Positions 49,802-64,000 of a DNA stretch of 64,000 nt are shown piece by piece. A program made the position numbers and the translations under genes. Under the pieces are notes generated by a model, which worked only from the letters and a program-made list of their open reading frames with translations, did no database searches and was not told where the DNA came from. Position 1 is the stretch's first letter. Each line of letters starts with the position of its first letter. Origin of the DNA: Sphingobium sp. SYK-6 (lineage in GTDB: Bacteria; Pseudomonadota; Alphaproteobacteria; Sphingomonadales; Sphingomonadaceae); contig NC_015974.1 of the NCBI RefSeq assembly GCF_000283515.1, forward strand, positions 1-64,000, given 5' to 3'.

Positions 49802-50191
49802 TCACTGCTTTGCGATCGCGGTGACCTCGCCATCGCTGCCCTTGAGCGAGAGGTCGAAATCGACCTTGTCGCCGACCTTGACCGCATCGGTGATCGACGG
49901 CGCGGCCTTGAACGCCATCGTCATCGCGGGCCACTTGGCCTCCGGGATCGGACCATGATCGAGCGTGATCGTGCCTGCCGCCTTGTCGATCGCGGTGACG
50001 GTGCCATGGCCCTTGGCCTTGATCGCGGCGTTCGCGTCAGGCGCCATCGACATGTTGCCCATGTCGCCGCTCATGGTCGCGGCGGGCGCCGCCTCGTTGG
50101 TCTCAGTCGCAACGGGGGCCTCCGCCTTCTTGCCGCACGCGGCAGTCAGGGCGGCGAGGCCGAGGGCAATGGTCAGTCGTGCATGGTTCAT
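49802..50191 (-). CDS. cusF: CusF-like periplasmic copper-binding protein
   Basis: The 129-residue protein has a lipobox-like 'LAALTAAC', a Met-rich linker ('MSGDMGNMSMAP') and a CusF domain with 'IPEAKWPAMTMAFKA', holding the Trp and Met ligands that bind Cu(I) and Ag(I) in CusF. It delivers metal to the CusCBA pump. The ATG at 50191 follows AAGGAG. It is the last gene of the minus-strand cus operon, 11 bp after cusA. Confidence 0.88.
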   Translation of the reverse strand: MNHARLTIALGLAALTAACGKKAEAPVATETNEAAPAATMSGDMGNMSMAPDANAAIKAKGHGTVTAIDKAAGTITLDHGPIPEAKWPAMTMAFKAAPSITDAVKVGDKVDFDLSLKGSDGEVTAIAKQ

Positions 50192-50202
50192 CGTCTTCTC
50201 CT

Positions 50203-53200
50203 TCATGATGAAACGGGTTGAGGGATGGGATCGGTCTTGGGCCGGCGCAACAGCAGGTAGGCGGCGGGCAGGACGAACATTGAGAGCAAGGGCGCGGTCA
50301 GCATGCCGCCGATCATCGGCGCGGCAATCCGGCTCATGACCTCCGAACCCGCGCCTGATCCCAGCAGGATCGGCAGCAGGCCGGCCAGGATCACCGCCAC
50401 CGTCATCGCCTTGGGACGGACGCGCAGCAGCGCGCCTTCGCGCACGGCGGCCTCGACCTCGGCAGCGTCCGGATGTGCGCCGCGCTCGGCCAGCGCGTTC
50501 TTGAGATAGATCAGCATCACCACCCCGAACTCGGCGGAGACGCCGGCGAGCGCGATGAACCCGACCCCGGTGGCGATCGACTGGTTGAACCCCAGCAGAT
50601 AAAGCGTCCAGATGCCGCCGGTCAGCGCAAACGGCAGCGTCCCCATGATCAGCGCCGCCTCGTCGAAGCGGCCGAAGATGAGGTAGAGCAGCACGAAGAT
50701 GATCAGCAGCGTCGCGGGCACGACCAGCTTCAAGCGGTCGACCGCGCGCTCGAGATATTCGAACTGGCCAGAGTAAGCGATGCTGACCCCAGGCGAGAGC
50801 CTGACCTGTTTCGCCACCGCACGCTGCAGATCGCCGACCACCGAGGCAAGATCGCGCCCGCGCACATCGACGTAGACCCAGGTCGAAGGCCGGGCATTCT
50901 CGGTCTTGAGCATCGGCGGTCCCTCGGCGATCGAGACGTTTGCCACGGTGCCCAAGGTGATCTGCTGGCCCGCGGGCGTCAGGATCGGTAGCGCCCGCAG
51001 CCTTTCGAGGCTGTCGCGCAATTCGCGCGGATAGCGCACGCTGATCGGATAGCGGGCGAGGCCCTCGACCGTCTCGCCGATCGTCTCGCCGCCGATCGCG
51101 CCGGAGACGATGGCCTGGACGTCGGCGATGTTGAGCCCGAACCGCGCGGCGGCGGCGCGGTCTATGTCGACATCGACATAGCGTCCGCCGGTCAGCCGCT
51201 CGGCGAGCGCCGAGCTGACGCCGGGCACGCTCCTGGCCACGGTCTCGACATCATGCGCGATGCGGTCGAGCTCGGCGAGGTCACTGCCCGACACCTTGAC
51301 CCCGATCGGGCTCTTGATGCCCGTCGCGAGCATGTCGATGCGGTTGCGGATCGGCGGCACCCAGATATTGGCGAGACCCGGAAGCTTCACCCGGCGATCG
51401 AGCTCGTCGACAAGGCGTTCGGGCGTCATGCCCGACCGCCACTGGTCGCGGGGCTTGAATTGGATCGTCGTCTCGAACATTTCGAGCGGCGCGGGATCGG
51501 TCGCGGTCTCGGCGCGGCCGGCCTTGCCGAACACGCTTTCGACTTCGGGCACGGTCTTGATCAGGCGGTCGGTCTGCTGGAGCAGCTCACTCGCCTTGGC
51601 GGCCGAGAGGCCCGGCAGCGCCGAGGGCATGTAGAGCAGGTCGCCCTCGTCGAGATTGGGCATGAACTCGCCGCCGAGCCGGCTGAGCGGCCAGGCCGTG
51701 GTGGCGAACACCAGAGCCGCGATCAGCAGCACTGCCTTGGGCCGCTTCATCGTCCAGTCGATCGCGGGCCGGTAGATATTGGTGAGCCAGCGATTGACCG
51801 GATTGGCCTGCTCGGCCGGAATGCGGCCCCGGATCAGCCAGCCCATCAGGATCGGCACCAGGGTCACCGACAGGATCGCGGCCGCGCCCATCGCATAGGT
51901 CTTGGTGAAGGCGAGCGGCGCGAACAGCCGGCCTTCCTGCGCCTCCAGGGTGAAGACCGGAATGAACGACAGCGTGATGATCAGCAGGCTGAAGAACAGC
52001 GCCGGCCCGACCTCGGCCGCCGCCTCGGTGACGACGATCCAGCGCATCTCGCCATCGAGATGTCTGTCCGGGTGATCCTGCTCCCAGCGTTCGATCCTCT
52101 TGTGGGCGTTCTCGATCATGACGACCGCCGCATCCACCATCGCGCCGATGGCGATGGCGATGCCGCCCAGCGACATGATGTTGGCGTTCACCCCCTGGAA
52201 CCGCATTACGACGAACGCGGCCAGCACACCGAGCGGCAAGGTCAGGATCGCGACCAGCGCCGAGCGGACGTGCCAGAGGAACAGGGCGCAGACCAATGCG
52301 ACGACGATGAACTCCTCGACCAGCTTGCGGGTGAGGTTCTCGACCGCGCGATCGATCAGCTGCGAGCGGTCATAGACCGTGACCACCTCGACGCCCGGCG
52401 GCAGGCTTTTCCTGAGATCGGCGAGCTTGTCCTTGACCGCCGCGATGGTCTCACGGGCGTTCTTGCCTGACCGAAGAATAACGACGCCGCCGGCGACCTC
52501 GCCTTCGCCGTTCAGTTCGGCGATGCCGCGCCGCATCTCGGGGCCGACCTGGATCGTGGCGACATCGCCGAGCCGGACGGGCACGCCGCCCGCCGCAGTC
52601 TTGAGCGGGATTGCCCGGAAATCGTCGAGCGTTTTCAGATAGCCCGAGGCGCGGACCATATATTCGGCCTCGGCCATTTCCAGCACCGAGCCGCCGGCTT
52701 CCTGATTGGCTTGGCTGATCGCCTGCACTGCCTGGGCGTGGGTTACGCCGTAGGCCGCGAGCTTCACCGGATCGAGCAGCACCTGGTACTGCTTGACCAT
52801 GCCGCCGATGCTGGCGACTTCGGCCACGCCGGTCACGGTCTTCAGCTCGTAGCGCAGGAACCAGTCCTGCAACCCGCGAAGCTGCGAGAGATCGTGCCGG
52901 CCGGTGCGGTCGACCAGCGCATATTCATAGACCCAGCCGACCCCGGTCGCGTCCGGCCCGAGCGCGCTGCGGGCGCTGGCCGGCAACCGACCCTGGACCT
53001 GGTTGAGATATTCGAGCACGCGGCTGCGCGCCCAGTAGAGATCGGTGCCGTCCTCGAAGATCACATAGACGAAGCTGTCGCCGAAGAAGCTATAGCCGCG
53101 CACCGTCTTGGCGCCGGGCACCGACAGCATGGTGGTGGTGAGCGGATAGGTGATCTGGTTCTCGACGATCTGCGGCGCCTGACCCGGATAGGAAGTGCGG

Positions 53201-53346
53201 ATCACGACCTGCACGTCGGAAAGATCGGGCAGCGCGTCGATCGGGGTCGAGCGCACCGCCCACAGGCCCGCGCCGACCAGCGCGAGCATGCCGAGCACGA
53301 CGAAGAAGCGGTTCCTCACCGACCAGCGGATGAGATGGGCGATCAC
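50203..53346 (-). CDS. cusA: Copper/silver RND efflux pump CusA
   Basis: The 1047-residue pump exports Cu(I)/Ag(I). Helix 4 contains '[20 protein letters not shown]', the monovalent-class pattern of HME-RND pumps. Three Met residues suited to the copper-binding cleft are in '[12 protein letters not shown]', 'PLEMFETTI' and '[10 protein letters not shown]'. Twelve membrane helices are evident. It overlaps cusB by four bases (ATGA). Confidence 0.93.
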
Positions 53347-54833
53347 TGGCCCGCCACCTTCGCCATATGCCGCAGCGTCGGTCCCGCCGGGGGCCGGTCG
53401 AACCCGAACCGGACCCGGTCACCCGCCTTGAAGCCGCGCGCGATGCCCGGATTGGCGAGCGCGAAGGTCATCGTCATCGCCGGCCAGTCGAGCGCGGGAA
53501 CGGGCTCGTGGCTGAGCGTCACCGAATTGGCCGTGATCCGCTCGATCTTGCCCGTCGTCTCGTACAGCGTGGCTTTCGACGCCGGCGCGGCGATGGTCGC
53601 CGATGCCGCACCGCCGCCGATCGGCCGCGCCTCGATTCCCGACAGGCTCGCCTCGGAATCGATCAGGAACTGCCCCGAGACGACGACGTTCTCGCCGGGC
53701 GACAGGCCGGCAAGGATCTCGGTCTCGCCGCCTGCCTCGCGGCCGATGCGGACCTCGGCGGGATGATAGCGCCCGTCGCCTGCGGCCAGCATGACGAGCG
53801 TGCGCCTGCCCGTGCGGATCACCGCTTCGCTCGGCACCAGCAGCGCCGGCTTGGCATCGCCGCCAAGCGCGACGCTGGCGAACATGCCCGGCCGCAACCG
53901 GCCGTCCCGGTTGGGCAGCTCGATCCGCACGGTGAGCGTGCGGCTGTCGGCCTGCGTGGTCGGCAGGATCGCGATCACCCGGCCGGCGAAGCGCTCGCCG
54001 GGGAAGCCCGCCAGCGTGGTGCTGGCATTCTGGCCGACCCGGACATCGCCCGCGCGCGCTTCGGGCACCGCGGCATTGAGCCAGACGGTGCCGAGCCCGC
54101 TTACCTGGGCGAGCGTCTGGCCCATGGCGAGCGTCACGCCGGCACGGGCGTCGAGCGTCTGGATCGTGCCCGAGATCGGCGTCGTGATCGTCACCACGCC
54201 GTTCGGGCGTCCGCTCCGCTCGACGCTGGCGATGAGGCCGTCGGACATGCCCATCAGCCGCAGTCGCTGGCGCGCGGCCGCGGTGAGGTCGGGCTTGCCG
54301 AGCCGCCTGACGCTCAGATATTCGGTCTGCGCGCCGCCCCATTCGGGCAGGAGCAGGTCCGCGATCGGCGCGCCGGCGCGGACCACGTCCCCGGGCGCTC
54401 GCGCATAGACGCGGCTCACGAACCCGCCCGAACGCGCCTGGATGACGGCGACGTCGCGCTGGTTGAAGTCGATCGTGCCGGTGACCTCGAGGGCCGAGGC
54501 AAGGCTGCCCATCTTCGCCGCGACGACCCGCAATCCCAGGCTCTGCCGCGCGGCGGGATCGACGGCGACCGTGGGGGCCGCGCCGGCGCTTCCTCCGTCC
54601 GCGTATCGCGGCACGAGCTGCATATCCATGAAGGGCGACTTGCCGGGCTTGTCGAACTTCTGGTTGGGGAACATCGGATCGTACCAGTAAAGGACTTTGC
54701 CTGCCCCGGCGGGCGTGGTCGCCTCCGATTGCGGTGCCTGGCGATGGCCAGCCCAATAGCCTGTGCCGCCGGCCAGCAGCGCGACAGCCAGGATCGATGC
54801 GCCCCAGCGCAGCGCGGATTTATCGAGCGTCAT
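53343..54833 (-). CDS. cusB: Adaptor CusB with fused C-terminal CusF domain
   Basis: The 496-residue membrane fusion protein has an N-terminal anchor, the heavy-metal-binding motif '[20 protein letters not shown]' (typical YHS/CusB start), lipoyl and barrel parts, and from about residue 420 a CusF-like domain ending in '[15 protein letters not shown]'. The fused domain would hand copper directly to CusA, in addition to the separate CusF. It overlaps cusC and cusA by four bases each. Confidence 0.9.
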
Positions 54834-56092
54834 GGCCGCTCCTCCCCATAGGTGATAGTGATGCGGACCGCGTCGCGCGCGACGTCGGCTTCGCGGTTGA
54901 GCGCCTCGACCTCGGCCTCCGCGAGCCCGAGCGTCGTGAGCAGCGCGGCGCCAAGGTCGAGCTTGCCGGCGCCATAGCTGTCGCGGTCGAGCTCGGCGCG
55001 GTGCCTGGCGAGTGGCACCAGCGTCTCGCGGGCATTGCGCAACCGGGAGAGATGCATGGCATGGTCTGCGAGATCGGCGTCGAGCTGCGCCACCAGCTCG
55101 CGGCGGATCGCCTCGCGGTCGAACCGACCCCCTTGCGCAAGGCTCTCGCTTGCAGCGATCCTGGGGTTCTGGCGCTTGCCGGCGAACAGCGGCAGGTCGA
55201 TCGACACGCCGACCGAGGCCATGTCGCCGTACATGGGATCGCGCCGGCCATAGGTGACGCCGACCTTCCAGTCGGGGCGCTTGTCGGCGCGCGCGAGACG
55301 CACGTCCGCTTCGGCGACTGCGATCCGCGCGTCCTGCGCGCGCAGGGCGGGAAGCGCATCGATCCCGGCCCGCAGCCGGATCGGATCGACATCGAGCATC
55401 GGCGGGTCGCCCGTCGCCTGCGGGTCGGGGTCGCCGGTATAGCGCGCGAGCCGGGCCCGCGCCTGCGCCACCACCGCAGCCATCTCGGCGCGGCGATCGG
55501 CGATGGCGGCGCGGAGCTGGTCGGGCTCGAGCGCCTGGCTCGGGCGCGCGCTGCCCGACGCCAGGCGTGCGGTCACGGTCTTCTGCAGGTCGTCGAGGCT
55601 GGCATCGAGCAGGTCGAGCTGCCGGAGCCGGCGTTCTCCATAATAGAGATCGACCCAGGCGAGGGCGGTCTCGAGCCGCACGTTGCGGCCTTCGACCAGC
55701 TCGCCCGCCTCGGCGATACCGATATCGGCCGCGGCGCGCGCGGCGCGTGCATGGCGCTTGGCGAGATTGGGGAAGGTCTGGCTGAACCCGATCGTCGCCA
55801 TAGTGAAATCGTCGCGCGTGAAGCTGCCGGCATTGGGGCCGCTCACCGGGAAGTTCTGCAGGCCCAGGTCGAGCGTCGGATCGGGCAGGCGATCGGCCGC
55901 GACCGCCGAAGAGCGGGCGCCGGCTGTCGCCGCCGCGCGCGCCTTGAGGCTTGGCGCGTTGGCGGCAGCGAGCCTCACTGCCTGCTCGTAGGTGAGCGGG
56001 CCGGCCGACACCGGCACGGCCCAGGCGCTCGCAAGCGTCGCACCGATAGAGAGCAACAGGCGTCGCACAGCGCGCCTCGGCATCATGATCAT
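54830..56092 (-). CDS. cusC: Outer-membrane factor CusC (TolC family)
   Basis: The 420-residue protein has a signal peptide ending near 'AVPVSAGPLTYEQ' and the two repeats of the TolC/OEP family ('LAWVDLYYGERRLRQLDLLD' and 'LSRLRNARETLVPLARHRAE'). It makes the outer-membrane exit of CusCBA. I chose the ATG at 56092 because GAGGGG lies about nine bases upstream; two other ATGs nearby are in frame. Confidence 0.88.
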   Translation of the reverse strand: MIMMPRRAVRRLLLSIGATLASAWAVPVSAGPLTYEQAVRLAAANAPSLKARAAATAGARSSAVAADRLPDPTLDLGLQNFPVSGPNAGSFTRDDFTMATIGFSQTFPNLAKRHARAARAAADIGIAEAGELVEGRNVRLETALAWVDLYYGERRLRQLDLLDASLDDLQKTVTARLASGSARPSQALEPDQLRAAIADRRAEMAAVVAQARARLARYTGDPDPQATGDPPMLDVDPIRLRAGIDALPALRAQDARIAVAEADVRLARADKRPDWKVGVTYGRRDPMYGDMASVGVSIDLPLFAGKRQNPRIAASESLAQGGRFDREAIRRELVAQLDADLADHAMHLSRLRNARETLVPLARHRAELDRDSYGAGKLDLGAALLTTLGLAEAEVEALNREADVARDAVRITITYGEERP

Positions 56093-56155
56093 GGATATCA
56101 TCCCCTCATGACAGAGGCGGCGCGCCAAGATGTGACGCGCCGCTCCGGAGCGGGT

Positions 56156-57549: not shown

Positions 57550-57581
57550 TTGACCCTGGACCATGGTCCAACCGGCATGAT
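57550..57581 (+). promoter_or_regulatory. MerR/CueR-type operator and promoter copy 2, upstream of the regulator
   Basis: TTGACC (57550-57555) and CATGAT (57576-57581) are 20 bp apart, and the spacer holds the perfect palindrome TGGACCATGGTCCA (57557-57570). The regulator ATG is at 57594. This suits autoregulation. Confidence 0.65.
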
Positions 57582-57593
57582 CGAGCGGATGAC

Positions 57594-58073
57594 ATGGGCA
57601 ATTTCAAGATCGGCGAACTGGCCGCGGCCGCAGGCGTGGGGCGGGATACGATCCGCTATTATGAGCGGATGGGCCTGCTGCGCGAGCCCGCGCGCACGGC
57701 AGCGGGCTACAGGCTCTACGACGCGACCGACCTCGAGCGCGTCAATTTCATCCGCTCGGCGCAGGAGCTTGGTTTCACACTCGAACAGGCCCGGCAGCTG
57801 CTGGCACTCAGGGCGTCGGACACCGCGCATGCCCAGGCCGTGCTCGATATCACGCTTGCCAAGATCGCGGACGCCGAAGCCCGGCTCGAGCGCCTGTCGG
57901 ATATCCGCGACATGCTGCGGATGCTCGCCGACGAATGCCCGGGCGAAGTGCCGGTCTCCGATTGCCCGATCCTCGCCTTCCTGACGGCGCGGCGGAAAGA
58001 CCAGCAGCATAACAAGAAACATCAGGCAGCGCAGGACGAACGATCACCACGAGCGAAAGGGGTTTTGTCATGA
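57594..58073 (+). CDS. MerR-family copper regulator, CueR-like
   Basis: The 159-residue regulator has a MerR helix-turn-helix ('VGRDTIRYYERMGLLREPAR') and a metal loop 'ADECPGEVPVSDCPILAFL' with two Cys. The third Cys that divalent sensors carry in the dimer helix is absent ('LRASDTAHAQAV'), as in CueR, so Cu(I)/Ag(I) sensing is likely. A Lys/Gln-rich C-terminal extension of about 25 residues follows. It overlaps the next lipoprotein gene by four bases. Confidence 0.82.
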   Translation: MGNFKIGELAAAAGVGRDTIRYYERMGLLREPARTAAGYRLYDATDLERVNFIRSAQELGFTLEQARQLLALRASDTAHAQAVLDITLAKIADAEARLERLSDIRDMLRMLADECPGEVPVSDCPILAFLTARRKDQQHNKKHQAAQDERSPRAKGVLS

Positions 58074-58291
58074 AGAAAATGCGTTTGATCGCCGTCCTCA
58101 CGCCGGCGCTGCTTCTAGGCGCCTGTGTGACCACGCGGCCGACCTCGGCGCAGGTCGAGAGTTGCCGGGCGATGGAGGGCAATATGGGTCTCCAGACGCC
58201 GCATGATCATGGCGAGATGAAGGGGCAGGGGCGCAACCCGATGAACCTCTCGCACGACCGGTGTCTCCGGATTCTGCGCAGCGCGCAATGA
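58070..58291 (+). CDS. Small lipoprotein of unknown function
   Basis: The 73-residue product has a lipobox 'ALLLGAC' and a short mature part with two more Cys ('VESCRAMEGNMGLQTPHDHG', 'RCLRILRS') and several Met and His. The start overlaps the regulator stop (ATGA). Copper binding is likely from composition only. Confidence 0.6.
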   Translation: MKKMRLIAVLTPALLLGACVTTRPTSAQVESCRAMEGNMGLQTPHDHGEMKGQGRNPMNLSHDRCLRILRSAQ

Positions 58292-58350: not shown

Positions 58351-58671
58351 ATGATCGACCATGCGAAGAAAGCCCTTCCACTTGTCGGCGGAAGCCTGTT
58401 GCTGGCGCTCGCGCTTTCGGGCTGCGACCGCCAGGCCGACCAGACGGTGCCGCCCGCGGCGAACAGCGTCGCCGCCACCCCGGTCCTGACCGACAGCGGC
58501 AACGCTGCAGACGCGGCGCCGATGGACGCGATGAGCAACCAGGCCGAGATGGAGCGGCATCACCGTCAGGCGATGGACCATGACGCGATGCGCGCCGGGG
58601 CCGGCAACCAGACCGCGCCGGCACCCGATCCCGCGCCGGGCAATGCGGCGATGCCGATGAAGGATATGTAG
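58351..58671 (+). CDS. Met/His-containing lipoprotein
   Basis: The 106-residue product has a lipobox 'LALSGC' and an Ala/Pro-rich mature part with 'MDAMSNQAEMERHHRQAMDH' and a tail ending 'AMPMKDM'. AAGGAG precedes the ATG at 58351. It lies in the copper gene train between the regulator and the electron-transfer module, and probably binds copper in the periplasm. Confidence 0.6.
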   Translation: MIDHAKKALPLVGGSLLLALALSGCDRQADQTVPPAANSVAATPVLTDSGNAADAAPMDAMSNQAEMERHHRQAMDHDAMRAGAGNQTAPAPDPAPGNAAMPMKDM

Positions 58672-58694
58672 GCTCGCACACTAAGGGGATGAGG

Positions 58695-60605
58695 ATGTCC
58701 AGGCGGATCAGCCTTCGACGCTTGAGCCTCGGCTGCGCAATCGCTCTCAGCCTGTCCGCGAGCGCGGGCGCGCAGGAGGGCGAGGATCATGCCGCGCATC
58801 ATGGCGCAGGCATGCCGGCCGGCGGGGGCATGTCCGCACCGGCAGAGCCGGGGTCGTCGGACATGGCGAAGATGATGAACCCCATGATGGATCGCATGAT
58901 CAATGGGGAAGGGGAGAATGAGCACGGCCACGAATCGCGCCGGACCGGCTTCATCTCGCAGCTGCTCGCCTTTCCCGCGCTTGACGAAGCGGCAAGGCAG
59001 CGGGTCGCTGCGCAGGCCGGCGAACGGGTAAGCACGGGTCTGGCGATGATCAACGCCGCCTCGGCCGACGGCGCGCGTGCGACCACGGTCTCGGCCCGGC
59101 TCGATGCGGCGCGGCGCCTGCGCGAGGGAACCGACCTGTTCCGCTCCGGCACCGCCGCGCAGGGCGCGATCGGGGGCTTGCAGCCGCCCCGGGAGGTCGG
59201 GCTTGCCTGGCTGCGCGATCAGCTCGACATCGACCAGGCCGCGCCCGGCCATGCCGATCACTGGTTCGGCATCTCGCCCTCGCACCTCCTTCTCATGCTG
59301 TTCCTGGGGCTGGTGAGCGCCACGCTTATCGCGCTGCAGATCTTCCGCCTGCGGCGGATCGGGGCGATCGCCGGCGGTGTCGCCACCGCCAAGGTTCCAG
59401 CAAAGCCGGAGCCGAAGGCTGCCCCTCCCGCTACCAGGGTTGCGCCCGCGCCTGCACCCGTTGCCGACAGCGCCGGGCTCGCGCCGAGCAATGCGGCCGC
59501 ACCCGCTGGGGCGTCGCTGCGCAAGCCCAAAAGCTGGGCGGGGCAGCTGCGCGTGGTCCAGATCGTGCGAGAGACGCCGAGCGTGCTGACCTTCCGGCTC
59601 GCGGACCCGACCGCCGACCGGCTGCCGTTCGACTTCCTGCCGGGCCAGTTCCTGCAGGTCGAGGTAGAGCCCGAAGCGGGCAAGACCGCGCGCCGTTCCT
59701 ACACGATCGCCTCTTCGCCGACCCAGCGGGCCTATGTCGAACTGACGGTCAAGCGCGAGGAGCAGGGCGTGGTCTCGCGATACCTGCACGACAAGGTCGT
59801 CGCCGACGATCTGCTGAAGGTCAGCGGACCGTTCGGCGCCTTCACCTTCACGGGAACGGATGCCCAGAGCATCGTGCTGATCGCGGGCGGGGTCGGCATC
59901 ACCCCGATGATGTCGGTGCTGCGCTATCTCACCGACACCGCGTGGAAGGGTGATATCTTCTTCTTCTACGGCGCACGGTCGACCGAGGAATTCGTGTTCC
60001 GCGACGAGCTCGAGCGGCTCGAACGCCGTTTTCCCAACCTCCATGTCGTCGCCGCGATGCAGCGCGCGCCCGGCACCGTCTGGATGGGCCCCGAAGGGCC
60101 GATCACGCGCGAGATGATCCTGGCCGCGGTGCCGGAGATCGCGAGCCGGCGCATCCATATGTGCGGCCCGCCGGCGATGATGGGCGCGATGCGCGGCGTG
60201 CTGGCGGAACTCGGCGTCCCCGACGCGCAGCTGCACACCGAGGCGTTCGGTCCGGCCTCGCTGCCGGCCGACCACGAGGATCTCGAGGTCAAGCCCGCGC
60301 CCCCGCCAGCGGATAAGCCGGCCCCGAGCGCCGAGGTGGCGCCGAGCACGGTGACCTTCTCCGTGTCGGGGGTGTCGGCGGCCTTGCCCGCGGACGAGAC
60401 CGTGCTGGAGGCGGCCGAGGGCGCGGGCGTCGAGATCCCCTATGCATGCCGTGCGGGCACATGCGGCGCCTGCGTGGTCAAGCTGCTGCAGGGCGAAGTG
60501 ACGATGGAGGTCGAATCCGGCCTTGCGCCCGCCGACAAGGCGCAAGGCTATGTGCTCGCGTGCCAGGCGAAGGGGACGGGCACGCCGCTCGTGGTCGAAG
60601 CCTGA
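58695..60605 (+). CDS. Membrane-anchored FAD/NAD(P)H reductase with 2Fe-2S ferredoxin domain
   Basis: The 636-residue protein has a signal peptide, a periplasmic region rich in His and Met ('EDHAAHHGAGMPAGGGM', 'MAKMMNPMMDRMI'), one membrane helix (about residues 196-216), then cytoplasmic redox domains. These are FAD-binding 'RRSYTIASSPTQRAYVELTV', NAD(P)H-binding 'VLIAGGVGITPMMSVLRYL' and 'MCGPPAMMG', and a plant-type 2Fe-2S site 'YACRAGTCGACVVKLL' with a fourth Cys in 'VLACQAKG'. It would take electrons from NAD(P)H and pass them to the cytochrome b encoded next. The start at 58695 follows AAGGGG at good spacing. Confidence 0.82.
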   Translation: MSRRISLRRLSLGCAIALSLSASAGAQEGEDHAAHHGAGMPAGGGMSAPAEPGSSDMAKMMNPMMDRMINGEGENEHGHESRRTGFISQLLAFPALDEAARQRVAAQAGERVSTGLAMINAASADGARATTVSARLDAARRLREGTDLFRSGTAAQGAIGGLQPPREVGLAWLRDQLDIDQAAPGHADHWFGISPSHLLLMLFLGLVSATLIALQIFRLRRIGAIAGGVATAKVPAKPEPKAAPPATRVAPAPAPVADSAGLAPSNAAAPAGASLRKPKSWAGQLRVVQIVRETPSVLTFRLADPTADRLPFDFLPGQFLQVEVEPEAGKTARRSYTIASSPTQRAYVELTVKREEQGVVSRYLHDKVVADDLLKVSGPFGAFTFTGTDAQSIVLIAGGVGITPMMSVLRYLTDTAWKGDIFFFYGARSTEEFVFRDELERLERRFPNLHVVAAMQRAPGTVWMGPEGPITREMILAAVPEIASRRIHMCGPPAMMGAMRGVLAELGVPDAQLHTEAFGPASLPADHEDLEVKPAPPPADKPAPSAEVAPSTVTFSVSGVSAALPADETVLEAAEGAGVEIPYACRAGTCGACVVKLLQGEVTMEVESGLAPADKAQGYVLACQAKGTGTPLVVEA

Positions 60606-61333
60606 TGCGCGAACGCAGCGACATTGCCGTGGGCCTGCTGGTCGCGTTCCTGCTGCTGTTCCCGTTCGGCTATCTCGTGCATGTGTCGCCCCGCTTTCCG
60701 GGTAGCCTGGCCGGCGGGATCATCGGGATCGCAGCGCTCGTGCTGATGCTGCTGACGCTTCCTTATGTCGCGGCCAAGCACATCGCCTGGGTCGACAAGG
60801 CGCTCTCCCGGGTCGTCAGCAAGCCAACCCTGCTCGCCATCCACATCTATGCCGGCGTGCTGGCGCCGATCCTGGGTCTGGTCCACGCCGCGCACAAGCT
60901 CGAAAGCCCGGTCGGCCTGCTTCTGACCGTCCTCCTGCTGATGACGGTCATCACCGGCTTCATCGGCCGCTACCTGCTTGCCCAGCTTGGTCGGGCGCTG
61001 CGCGGACGCAGGTCAGAACTGGCCTCGCTTCGCGCCGCCTTCCTCGAGGAGCCGGCGGCGCCGACGCAGGCCGATACCGCAGCCCCGCCGCTGTCGGGCT
61101 GGAAGCGCTATCTGTTCGTCGCCGGGGATGCGTCCGCGGGCCAGCGCCCCCAGGACAAGGCGGGGATCGCCGCAGCGCTGGCCGATACCGAATTCGCGAT
61201 CCGTGCCGAAGAGGCAACCAACACCCTGTTCGCGCGGTGGCGGTTCCTGCACATCCTGCTGGGCTGTCTCATCTTCGCGCTGCTCGCGCTCCACGTCGGC
61301 GCGGCGATCTATTACGGGCTGCGCTGGCTATGA
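60605..61333 (+). CDS. b-type cytochrome membrane subunit
   Basis: The 242-residue protein has about five membrane helices. Two contain His pairs 14 residues apart: 'HIYAGVLAPILGLVHAAHK' and 'HILLGCLIFALLALHVG'. This is the bis-His spacing used for stacked hemes in ferric reductase and b-type cytochromes. A cytoplasmic loop of about 85 residues separates the fourth and last helices. It starts on the reductase stop (TGATG) and overlaps the multiheme gene by four bases. It should carry electrons across the membrane. Confidence 0.75.
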   Translation: MRERSDIAVGLLVAFLLLFPFGYLVHVSPRFPGSLAGGIIGIAALVLMLLTLPYVAAKHIAWVDKALSRVVSKPTLLAIHIYAGVLAPILGLVHAAHKLESPVGLLLTVLLLMTVITGFIGRYLLAQLGRALRGRRSELASLRAAFLEEPAAPTQADTAAPPLSGWKRYLFVAGDASAGQRPQDKAGIAAALADTEFAIRAEEATNTLFARWRFLHILLGCLIFALLALHVGAAIYYGLRWL

Positions 61334-62052
61334 GCTGGCAGCGTCTTTCCTACGCCGTCTTCATCGCAGCCCTGCTGGTGATGGTCGCCGCGGTCGCGAT
61401 CCGGATGCGATCGGACGCGCCGAGGGATGCCGGCCTGGTGGCGCAGCTCGTCTCGCCCGGCCCGCTCTCGAGCGCGCACCAGTCCTTTGCCGGCCAATGC
61501 ACGGCCTGCCACACGCCGGGCAAGGGCGTCGAAACCCGGACCTGTCTCACCTGCCATGCGGGCACCGATTTCGGGACGAAGCAGTCGACGCAGTTCCACG
61601 CGAAAGCGACGCAGTGCACCTCCTGCCACGTCGAACATGAGGGAGAGCGCGGCATCATCCGCATGGATCACGCCGCGTTGCTCGACATGGCGAAGTGGCG
61701 GCAGCCTTTGGCGGGCATGTCGACAAACACTCGAAGCCTGACCCCCGAGACCGCGCTCAATTGCGCGAGCTGCCATGCGTTCCGCGATCCGCACCAGGGC
61801 CTGTTCGGCACCGACTGCGCGAGCTGCCACAAGACCGACAGCTGGAAGATCGCCAATTACCGCCATCCATCGGTCAATTCGACGCAGTGCGCCGAGTGCC
61901 ATAAGGCGCCGCCCAGTCACTTCATGGAGCATTTCAGCATGGTCTCGCAGCGCGCAGCCGGATCGAAGGCGCGCGTCGACCAATGCTATGCCTGTCACGC
62001 CACCGACAGCTTCAACAATATCCGCAAGCGAGGCTGGTATGATCACCATTGA
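61330..62052 (+). CDS. Seven-heme c-type cytochrome
   Basis: The 240-residue protein has an N-terminal membrane anchor and seven CxxCH heme sites: CTACH, CLTCH, CTSCH, CASCH, CASCH, CAECH and CYACH, spread over residues 57-220. Additional His residues could be the distal ligands, as in cytochrome c3/NrfB-type proteins. It lies in the periplasm, coupled by ATGA overlap to the cytochrome b gene. It is the likely terminal electron donor of the module, with copper or another periplasmic oxidant as the acceptor. Confidence 0.85.
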   Translation: MSWQRLSYAVFIAALLVMVAAVAIRMRSDAPRDAGLVAQLVSPGPLSSAHQSFAGQCTACHTPGKGVETRTCLTCHAGTDFGTKQSTQFHAKATQCTSCHVEHEGERGIIRMDHAALLDMAKWRQPLAGMSTNTRSLTPETALNCASCHAFRDPHQGLFGTDCASCHKTDSWKIANYRHPSVNSTQCAECHKAPPSHFMEHFSMVSQRAAGSKARVDQCYACHATDSFNNIRKRGWYDHH

Positions 62053-62482
62053 GGCCGACTGGCTGAGCGCCTTCTTCCGGCTCGCCGTGATCGGCCTGGA
62101 ACTGGCGGGCACGCTGACCATCCTGGTCGGCGCGGGGCTCGCAACCTTTCTGTTTGCGCGGCGGGCGAGGGCGGGCGACCGAACCGAGGCCTATAGCACG
62201 TTCCGCTCGGCGCTCGGCCGCAGCATCCTGCTCGGCCTGGAATTTCTGGTCGCCGGCGACATCGTCAAGTCGCTGGTGATCAACCCGACGCTCGACGATC
62301 TCATCGTGCTGGCCGGGCTTGTGCTGGTGCGGACCTTCCTGAGCATCTCGCTCGGGGTCGAGATCAACGGTCACTGGCCCTGGGAGGAAACCCGGATGGC
62401 GCGGGAGAAGGCGCGTGCGGCGTCGGATGGGTCGCCGGCGACGGCTGAGGCCGCCGGATGCGGCACACCGCGCAAGGGATAG
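62039..62482 (+). CDS. DUF1622-like membrane protein
   Basis: The 147-residue protein has three predicted membrane helices with 'FRSALGRSILLGLEFLVAGD' and 'VRTFLSISLGVEINGHWPWE', the conserved pattern of DUF1622 proteins. Function unknown. It overlaps the end of the heme protein gene by 14 bp, so it is part of the same operon. Confidence 0.7.
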   Translation: MITIEADWLSAFFRLAVIGLELAGTLTILVGAGLATFLFARRARAGDRTEAYSTFRSALGRSILLGLEFLVAGDIVKSLVINPTLDDLIVLAGLVLVRTFLSISLGVEINGHWPWEETRMAREKARAASDGSPATAEAAGCGTPRKG

Positions 62483-62496
62483 CCGATGGAGGGTGC

Positions 62497-62937
62497 ATGA
62501 TGATCGAGAGACGCGAATTGCTGATGGCGGGCGCCGGCCTTGCCGCCGCCGGAACGCTGGCTGCGCCGGCGGCGGGGCAGCAGCATCGAATGGAAGGGAT
62601 GGCGATGTCGATGACGGACTGCATCGACGATTGCCTGGCTTCACACCGCATGTGCCTCGAAACCGCCGCCTGGCTGACGAAGCAAAGCAGCGCGCTGGCG
62701 AGCGCGTCGTTGATCGCCATGCTGAACGACTGTGCGGAACTGTGCCAGGCGACAGCCAACTCGATGCTGCGGGAATCGGCTCTGCACCGCATCCTGTGCC
62801 GCGCCTGCGCCGATGCTTGCGAGCGCTGCGCCGAGGAATGCGGGCGTCATAGCGAGGACCAGCGGATCGCGCGTTGCTCGGCCACCTGCAAGAAATGCGC
62901 GGCGAGCTGCCGAATGATGGCGGACATGACCGGCTGA
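62497..62937 (+). CDS. Tat-exported Csp1-like four-helix-bundle copper storage protein
   Basis: The 146-residue protein has a Tat-like signal (RRELLMAGAGLAAAGTLAAP) and a mature helical bundle with 14 Cys arranged as CxxxC pairs: 'CIDDCLASHRMC', 'CAELC', 'CRACADACERCAEEC' and 'CSATCKKCAASC'. Csp proteins line the inside of a four-helix bundle with Cys that hold many Cu(I) ions. A Tat signal implies that it folds before export. GGAGG precedes the ATG at 62497. Confidence 0.88.
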   Translation: MMIERRELLMAGAGLAAAGTLAAPAAGQQHRMEGMAMSMTDCIDDCLASHRMCLETAAWLTKQSSALASASLIAMLNDCAELCQATANSMLRESALHRILCRACADACERCAEECGRHSEDQRIARCSATCKKCAASCRMMADMTG

Positions 62938-63359: not shown

Positions 63360-63677
63360 ACCAAAAGCCCATCAGAGGTCGGTTGATCAAAGCCTCACCA
63401 TACAAGGCGTTGGTATCGTTTGACCGGGCCGCAACGTTGGTCCGCCGTTTCCCCGGCGGGCCAATTGCGTTTCAGAATAAAGGTCTGCACGAGCTTTAAT
63501 GCGATGCAGTCATGAATCCGCTGGACCCTTGGACCATGGTTTCGCCCGCAAGATCGCGGGCCTGCCAGTCCTGATCCAGTGCGGATTCGTAACTTACGTA
63601 TTCAGACCAAAGGGCCAAGCCCGCATGAGGGGTCGGTATGGTCGCGGTCGCAAACGGCGATCGGGCAAGGACTCATC
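63360..63677. other. Gene-free stretch with a copper operator and hairpin
   Basis: No protein gene is supported in these 318 bases. The stretch holds the third MerR/CueR-type site (63522-63540) and a GCCCGC...GCGGGC hairpin just after it (about 63545-63562). The sequence TAACTTACGTATTC near 63590 resembles ATATTACGTATACTG at 62951, upstream of the other Met/His-rich gene. Confidence 0.5.
63522..63549 (+). promoter_or_regulatory. MerR/CueR-type operator copy 3
   Basis: TGGACC (63522-63527) is followed by TTGGACCATGGT, sharing the 11-mer TGGACCATGGT with the operator in front of the regulator gene. It lies about 155 bp upstream of the last gene in the window and probably puts it under copper control. 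Confidence 0.5.
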
Positions 63678-64000
63678 ATGCGGAGAACCACAATGCGAAA
63701 GACGAAACTTCTAGTCGGCGCGATCGGCTGCCTGGCGACCCTGAACTTCGCTGGCGCGGGTCTGGCGCAATCGGCACCCGCCGCGCCCCAGCACGCCCCT
63801 GCGCAGCCGAAGCCATCCACCGCCCATGCCCATCAGCAGGGGATGGATCATGGAGGGCAGCAGATGCACGACCAAATGATGCAGGATCACCAAGCCGGCA
63901 TGCAGAAGCCGCAAGGCCAGCAGGGCGCTGCGGGCATGGCCGGAATGTCTGGTGGCTCGTCGCAGGGGAGCGGTTCGAGCAAGGCTGGCAAGCCCAAGAG
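63678..64000 (+). CDS. Exported Met/His/Gln-rich protein, cut by the window end
   Basis: The frame runs from the ATG at 63678 (AAGGA six bases upstream) to the end of the window without a stop, 107 codons. It has a signal peptide (to about 'GAGLAQSAP') and a low-complexity mature part: 'HAHQQGMDHGGQQMHDQMMQ' and Gly/Met/Ser repeats. Composition suggests periplasmic copper binding, like the two genes before it. An ATG at 63693 is in frame. Confidence 0.6.
   Translation, partial: MRRTTMRKTKLLVGAIGCLATLNFAGAGLAQSAPAAPQHAPAQPKPSTAHAHQQGMDHGGQQMHDQMMQDHQAGMQKPQGQQGAAGMAGMSGGSSQGSGSSKAGKPK

Follow-up and report, generated by a model that had tools for sequence, protein, structure and literature searches.

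The window analysed here, a stretch of 64,000 nucleotides from Sphingobium sp. SYK-6, carries a trio of overlapping genes for an anchored reductase, a membrane cytochrome b and a heptaheme cytochrome c, predicted to form a transmembrane reductase that may act on periplasmic copper. The trio belongs to a rightward operon with the order merR, putative lipoprotein, Met/His-rich secreted protein, reductase, cytochrome b, heptaheme cytochrome c, DUF1622 and Csp1-like gene, in which all intergenic gaps are 60 bases or less. Open reading frames (ORFs), Pfam matches and motif counts agree with the original prediction of the trio: a reductase with flavin adenine dinucleotide (FAD) and 2Fe-2S domains, a cytochrome b with two H-x13-H pairs whose start overlaps the end of the reductase gene as TGATG, and a heptaheme cytochrome c whose start overlaps the end of the cytochrome b gene as ATGA. 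The operon, part of a mobile copper-resistance island, is located on a contig of the host genome (C2, 148.8 kb) with plasmid features.

The three proteins

The reductase ORF (58689..60605, + strand; RefSeq takes the next ATG, 58695, as the start) encodes a signal at the N-terminus followed by a His/Met-rich stretch, a helical domain modelled with confidence (approximately residues 80-180), a single membrane helix (residues 200-218) and cytoplasmic FAD, NAD(P) and 2Fe-2S domains. FAD_binding_6, NAD_binding_1 and a C-terminal Fer2 domain all pass the Pfam cut-offs, and the FAD motif, RRSYTIASS, is of the phthalate dioxygenase reductase type, the class of FAD/NAD/2Fe-2S proteins to which the reductase belongs. 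Phthalate dioxygenase reductase itself (PDB 2pia) is the top Foldseek match of the model (E 2.9e-23). The two proteins have the fold and the domain order FAD, NAD, 2Fe-2S in common, but the window protein adds a signal, a periplasmic His/Met domain and a membrane anchor in front. That periplasmic domain, pointed out in the original prediction, is present, and its H34, H37 and H38 are nearly invariant in an alignment of 41 diverse rows (A5). At several loci LTXXQ (Spy/CpxP-type) genes lie immediately upstream of the reductase gene (L131:5995-6741, L126:12987-13697 and L129:13165-13887); these proteins may be distantly related to the helical periplasmic domain.

The second gene (60605..61333, + strand) encodes a five-helix, di-heme-type membrane cytochrome b, as judged from alignment and hydropathy. 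K/R-rich loops alternate between the two sides of the five hydrophobic helices, as the positive-inside rule predicts, and each of the two H-x13-H pairs, H80/H94 and H216/H230, provides one His per membrane face. These four residues, together with two further His on the periplasmic side, H26 and H97, are invariant in a 37-row alignment (A4). Two His-x12/14-His pairs in two membrane helices are a criterion of the NOX/ferric reductase domain (FRD) family (PMC5676040), and H80-x13-H94 and H216-x13-H230 conform to it. Nevertheless, no Pfam family reaches its cut-off with this protein. Ferric-reductase identity (PF01794) was rejected at 16.5 bits against a cut-off of 28, and a profile-profile comparison with the FRD proteins of relatives gave E 0.078 and a probability of 0.7%; moreover, the FAD domain resides on a separate protein rather than in the heme-domain chain. 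Cytochrome b561/Ni_hydr_CYTB identity (PF01292) was likewise rejected (19 bits against 30.1; profile-profile against the PF01292 members of relatives, E 0.067, probability 0.8%). The structural model, with a predicted local distance difference test score of 78, has no PDB match at E<=0.001 in Foldseek, NOX5 and b561 appearing only at E ~3; structure predictions were run from alignments of 20 and 24 rows.

The third gene (61330..62052, + strand) encodes a membrane-tethered periplasmic cytochrome c with exactly seven CxxCH motifs, where 20,000 shuffles yielded a maximum of two. In a 39-row alignment (A6) the seven motifs, nine other His and a PPSHxMxHFxM motif are invariant. The nine extra His would be enough to give seven bis-His hemes, with two to spare. 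The Met and His residues of PPSHxMxHFxM could conceivably bind copper, a suggestion that stays hypothetical because the hydrogenase-linked copies considered below retain the motif too. By Pfam the protein is of the c3/c7 multiheme type; a DmsE/NrfB-like assignment was rejected, with 29.7 bits for the DmsE-family NCBIfam model against a cut-off of 192. CcmF, needed for c-type heme attachment, is encoded in the host genome. Weak heptaheme matches (E ~1e-25) in other genomes come from another type of operon, whose proteins contain 24 to 49 CxxCH, and were excluded from the locus set. Single ORFs with 24, 34 and 49 motifs occur at L134:9193-11887, L137:8982-15525 and L133:5346-8984, respectively, with ccmF near those of L134 and L137, and a weak relative of the window cytochrome b immediately upstream of that in L134.

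Copper linkage and horizontal spread

Co-occurrence of the trio with copper genes had been set beforehand as a test, and it held. A non-redundant set of 37 loci (cytochrome b less than 88% identical) was compared with 40 control stretches of 20 kb, taken from six genomes, each of which holds the trio. The copper and metal gene set comprised multicopper oxidase, CopB, CusF, DUF411, Csp1, P-type ATPase, CopC, CopD and resistance-nodulation-division (RND) permease, of which the RND and P-type ATPase members are not all copper-specific. At least one such gene lies within ~10 kb at 32 of the 37 loci versus 5 of the 40 controls (Fisher p 2.5e-11), some flanks being shorter than 10 kb and the reference proteins coming partly from these same islands. 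Two or more are present at 27/37 versus 2/40, a DUF1622 gene at 22/37 versus 0/40 and a Csp1 gene at 13/37 versus 0/40. In a tree of 36 loci, the five loci without copper genes are scattered and need five separate changes, while all 18 rows on the window's side are copper-linked. Thus, given the excess over controls and the scatter of the exceptions, the copper linkage is real. A match in a gammaproteobacterial-class genome, found outside the plasmid collection, also adjoins CopA, CopB, a heavy-metal sensor and an RND pump. As a separate observation, a thymidine-phosphorylase-family and ribose-phosphate pyrophosphokinase gene pair stands beside the trio in unrelated hosts (5/37 loci, 0/40 controls; seen at L021, L023, L074, L075, L076, L078, L080 and L132).

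A genome scan found at least 409 heptaheme relatives, of which 80 were retained. Nearly all of about 100 loci preserve the trio order and the overlaps, or near-overlaps; these loci range from sphingomonads to Legionella, Variovorax, Alteromonas and Bacteroidota. Relatives on plasmids come from Caulobacter, Qipengyuania, Acetobacter, Roseomonas, Variovorax, Methylophaga and Legionella, as well as from Alteromonas, Salinimonas, Bradyrhizobium, Methylocystis, Pontibacter and Spirosoma. A 4.25-kb block reaches a coverage of 80% or more in 25 plasmid records, most of them conjugative and from sphingomonads, and several are identical over the full 4.25 kb; such identity points to recent horizontal spread between genera. 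In even-handed genome samples, the heptaheme protein was found at E<=1e-40 in 2 of 385 genomes from the window's class, among them the window's own, and in 1 of 369 genomes of another proteobacterial class, indicating a rare accessory module.

Regulator and neighbouring genes

A MerR-type operator/promoter (57550..57581, + strand) lies upstream of merR and reads TTGACC-CTGGACCATGGTCCAACCGG-CATGAT, with the dyad TGGACCATGGTCCA inside the 20-bp spacer; as a bare 16-mer with up to three mismatches the dyad is expected 0.14 times per 64 kb. This element recurs ahead of merR in the diverged loci L033, L043, L044, L061, L062, L069, L075, L076 and L089, and it is kept where MerR is only 64-86% identical (L089, L075, L069, L033, L062 and L061). 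Such conservation between diverged loci makes a MerR-type metal switch the most likely control of the operon. The regulator (57594..58073, + strand; PF13411 E 8.5e-20), a MerR-family heavy-metal-responsive protein, is the product of the first operon gene. Among NCBIfam models it scores highest with MerR, ZntR and CueR but reaches none of the equivalog cut-offs, and its metal was therefore left unassigned.

Between merR and the trio, ORFs and sequence indicate a small putative lipoprotein (58070..58291, + strand), whose gene overlaps merR as ATGA and has homologues at several loci, and a small secreted Met/His-rich protein (58351..58671, + strand), whose gene is conserved ahead of the trio in sphingomonads and Caulobacter. 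Two further products, a DUF1622-like membrane protein and a Csp1-like copper store, had been placed in the same gene train. The first is secure (62039..62482, + strand; PF07784 E 1.3e-21), its gene overlapping that for cytochrome c by 14 bp. The second (62497..62937, + strand) is a putative Cys-rich four-helix copper-binding protein with 14 Cys and a twin-arginine-like N-terminus, which matches TIGR04401 at E 2.2e-6 but with 28 bits against a cut-off of 100; RefSeq names a homologue four-helix bundle copper-binding protein. Divergent from the operon (49802..56128, - strand) are CusF-like, RND permease, adaptor and TolC-family genes of the copper/silver efflux type, identified from ORFs and the annotation of identical pTK1 genes.

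Downstream of the operon the window ends in the start of another secreted His/Met-rich protein (63694-64000), with a half-similar CTTGGACCATGGTTT element ahead of it near 63529. Farther downstream, the island (L125, G000:C2:60001-80000) encodes aldehyde and alcohol dehydrogenases, then CopA multicopper oxidase, CopB, a major facilitator superfamily transporter and DUF411; in L125 a second copAB pair follows DUF411 on the opposite strand.

A candidate cupric reductase and its rivals

The electron path of the original prediction fits the predicted topology and the invariant ligands. In the anchored reductase, cytoplasmic NADH or NADPH would reduce first FAD and then the 2Fe-2S cluster, from which electrons would pass to two hemes stacked across cytochrome b, probably liganded by H80-H216 on the cytoplasmic side and H94-H230 on the periplasmic side, and thence, if flow is outward and the heme sites are occupied, to the tethered heptaheme protein. 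That the trio is an electron wire from NAD(P)H to the periplasm is very probable, and a role for it in copper or metal handling is probable. Cytochrome c, perhaps with the periplasmic His/Met domain of the reductase, would most likely reduce Cu(II) to Cu(I), and the Cu(I) would be taken by Cu(I)-specific partners, namely the Csp1-like store, CusF/CusA-type efflux and P-type ATPases. The two functions put forward in the original prediction, Cu(II) reduction or the use of copper as an electron sink, remain inferences. The best explanation is a horizontally transferred, metal-regulated transmembrane reductase that reduces Cu(II), with a probability of roughly 0.45; that Cu(II) reduction is the main reaction is a little short of an even bet. 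Because the recurring partners handle Cu(I), the simplest reading, though unproven, is that of a periplasmic Cu(II) reductase.

Several observations weigh against a cupric reductase. Five of the 37 loci lack a copper gene by the reference set used, the CusA, Csp1 and DUF1622 partners are not universal, and the controls were drawn from six genomes only. Multicopper oxidases, encoded at many loci, catalyse the opposite reaction, oxidation of Cu(I), and would counteract Cu(II) reduction unless both act in different conditions. Finally, in Alteromonas and Glaciecola the trio lies inside a [NiFe]-hydrogenase operon. This partly realises one of the findings that had been named beforehand as refuting a copper function, homologues proven to serve another electron acceptor.

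The hydrogenase context shows that the module is not exclusively a copper device; it may link NAD(P)H to the periplasm more generally, with copper as its main but not its only use. In a rival explanation, a general electron connector that we regard as unlikely, the heptaheme protein would dock on varied partners: [NiFe] hydrogenase in Alteromonas, where flow may run inward, and elsewhere a metal-island partner, be it multicopper oxidase, DUF1622, a Spy/CpxP-like protein or another. Behind the trio, Glaciecola and Alteromonas have a gene for a 407-aa protein and then hynD, hupH, hynS, hynL and hyp genes, the order published for the HynSL hydrogenase operon of Alteromonas macleodii (orf1/cyt/orf2/hynD/hupH/hynS/hynL; PMC3102683), and such neighbours argue that the module is not tied to one partner. 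By gene order alone, Orf1 and Cyt fit the positions of cytochrome b and heptaheme c homologues, in a hydrogenase rather than a copper context and with divergent sequences. However, Orf1 and Cyt are dispensable for maximal HynSL activity in E. coli (PMC3102683), an assay outside which electron delivery falls. The hydrogenase-linked row, among the most divergent copies, also has the longest branch of the tree (1.27) and an odd composition, and so looks derived, and the Salinimonas relative, whose plasmid carries hypE, lies near a gene for a heavy-metal P-type ATPase. The module was either recruited by the hydrogenase or is a general connector.

It is improbable that the trio simply rides along on metal-resistance islands and serves stress or redox functions that have nothing to do with copper, for instance in periplasmic protein repair alongside the frequent Spy/CpxP (LTXXQ) proteins. 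The LTXXQ genes upstream of the reductase and the assorted stress genes of the islands would suit such a role, but copper genes recur across separate replicons, classes, two phyla and differing island layouts, and the operon has a metal-type MerR at its head and a Csp1-like gene at its end. More improbable still is a reductant outlet or respiratory bypass passing surplus NAD(P)H electrons to copper, other periplasmic acceptors or oxidases under copper damage, with only indirect resistance: the architecture suits electron export and alcohol and aldehyde dehydrogenase genes follow the trio at 8/37 loci, but no recurrent terminal reductase or outer-membrane conduit appeared in the neighbourhoods examined, and most neighbours are classical detoxification genes.

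The proposed cupric reductase has functional counterparts. The eukaryotic FRE, STEAP and Dcytb metalloreductases and the NOX family, like the trio, use NAD(P)H or a cytosolic reductant, a flavin (FRE, NOX) and b hemes on spaced membrane His, and deliver electrons outside; Cu(II) is among the substrates that FRE, STEAP and Dcytb can reduce (PMC7558416). Unlike them, the window system is split over three proteins and adds a 2Fe-2S cluster and seven c hemes; in place of the FRE/NOX motif H(PSA)F[TS][LIMV], absent from the reductase, it has RRSYTIASS, and its cytochrome b falls below the PF01794 cut-off. In MsrPQ with Fre, a periplasmic methionine sulfoxide repair system, a flavin reductase passes electrons via a membrane heme b protein to a periplasmic protein. 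The principle is similar, but the trio has a heptaheme cytochrome c and an anchored reductase with its own 2Fe-2S cluster, and no molybdenum MsrP domain was found among the ten proteins scanned with Pfam. Thus the module resembles FRE/NOX and MsrPQ in working principle but does not pass the family tests of either. CcoG cupric reductases share with it a membrane protein, a link to copper tolerance and a proposed conversion of Cu(II) to Cu(I). They are reported to have two tetranuclear Fe-S clusters and an unknown donor, whereas the trio has FAD, 2Fe-2S, b and c hemes and NAD(P)H; CcoG membership was rejected, as the Pfam scan of the reductase showed only the plant-type 2Fe-2S Fer2 domain. No description of the trio was found in the open-access literature on DUF1622 and copper, Sphingobium multiheme copper plasmids, or heptaheme proteins and copper. 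Tentatively, and with the odds against it, the trio may be a dedicated plasmid-borne, NAD(P)H-driven periplasmic cupric reductase complex, with a cytochrome b family without named relatives and a heptaheme c, and so a new functional class of copper-resistance determinant in at least two phyla.

Cu(I) is the form accepted by CusA-type efflux, Csp1 storage and P1B-1 ATPases alike, and how it is supplied in the periplasm of aerobic bacteria is largely open. If the reading of the trio as a cupric reductase is true, an NAD(P)H-driven transmembrane reductase that is mobile and linked to copper would close this gap as a bacterial counterpart of the FRE metalloreductases. The trio also ties the orphan cytochrome pair of the hydrogenase operon to a wider module and, as a defined set of three genes, is directly testable.

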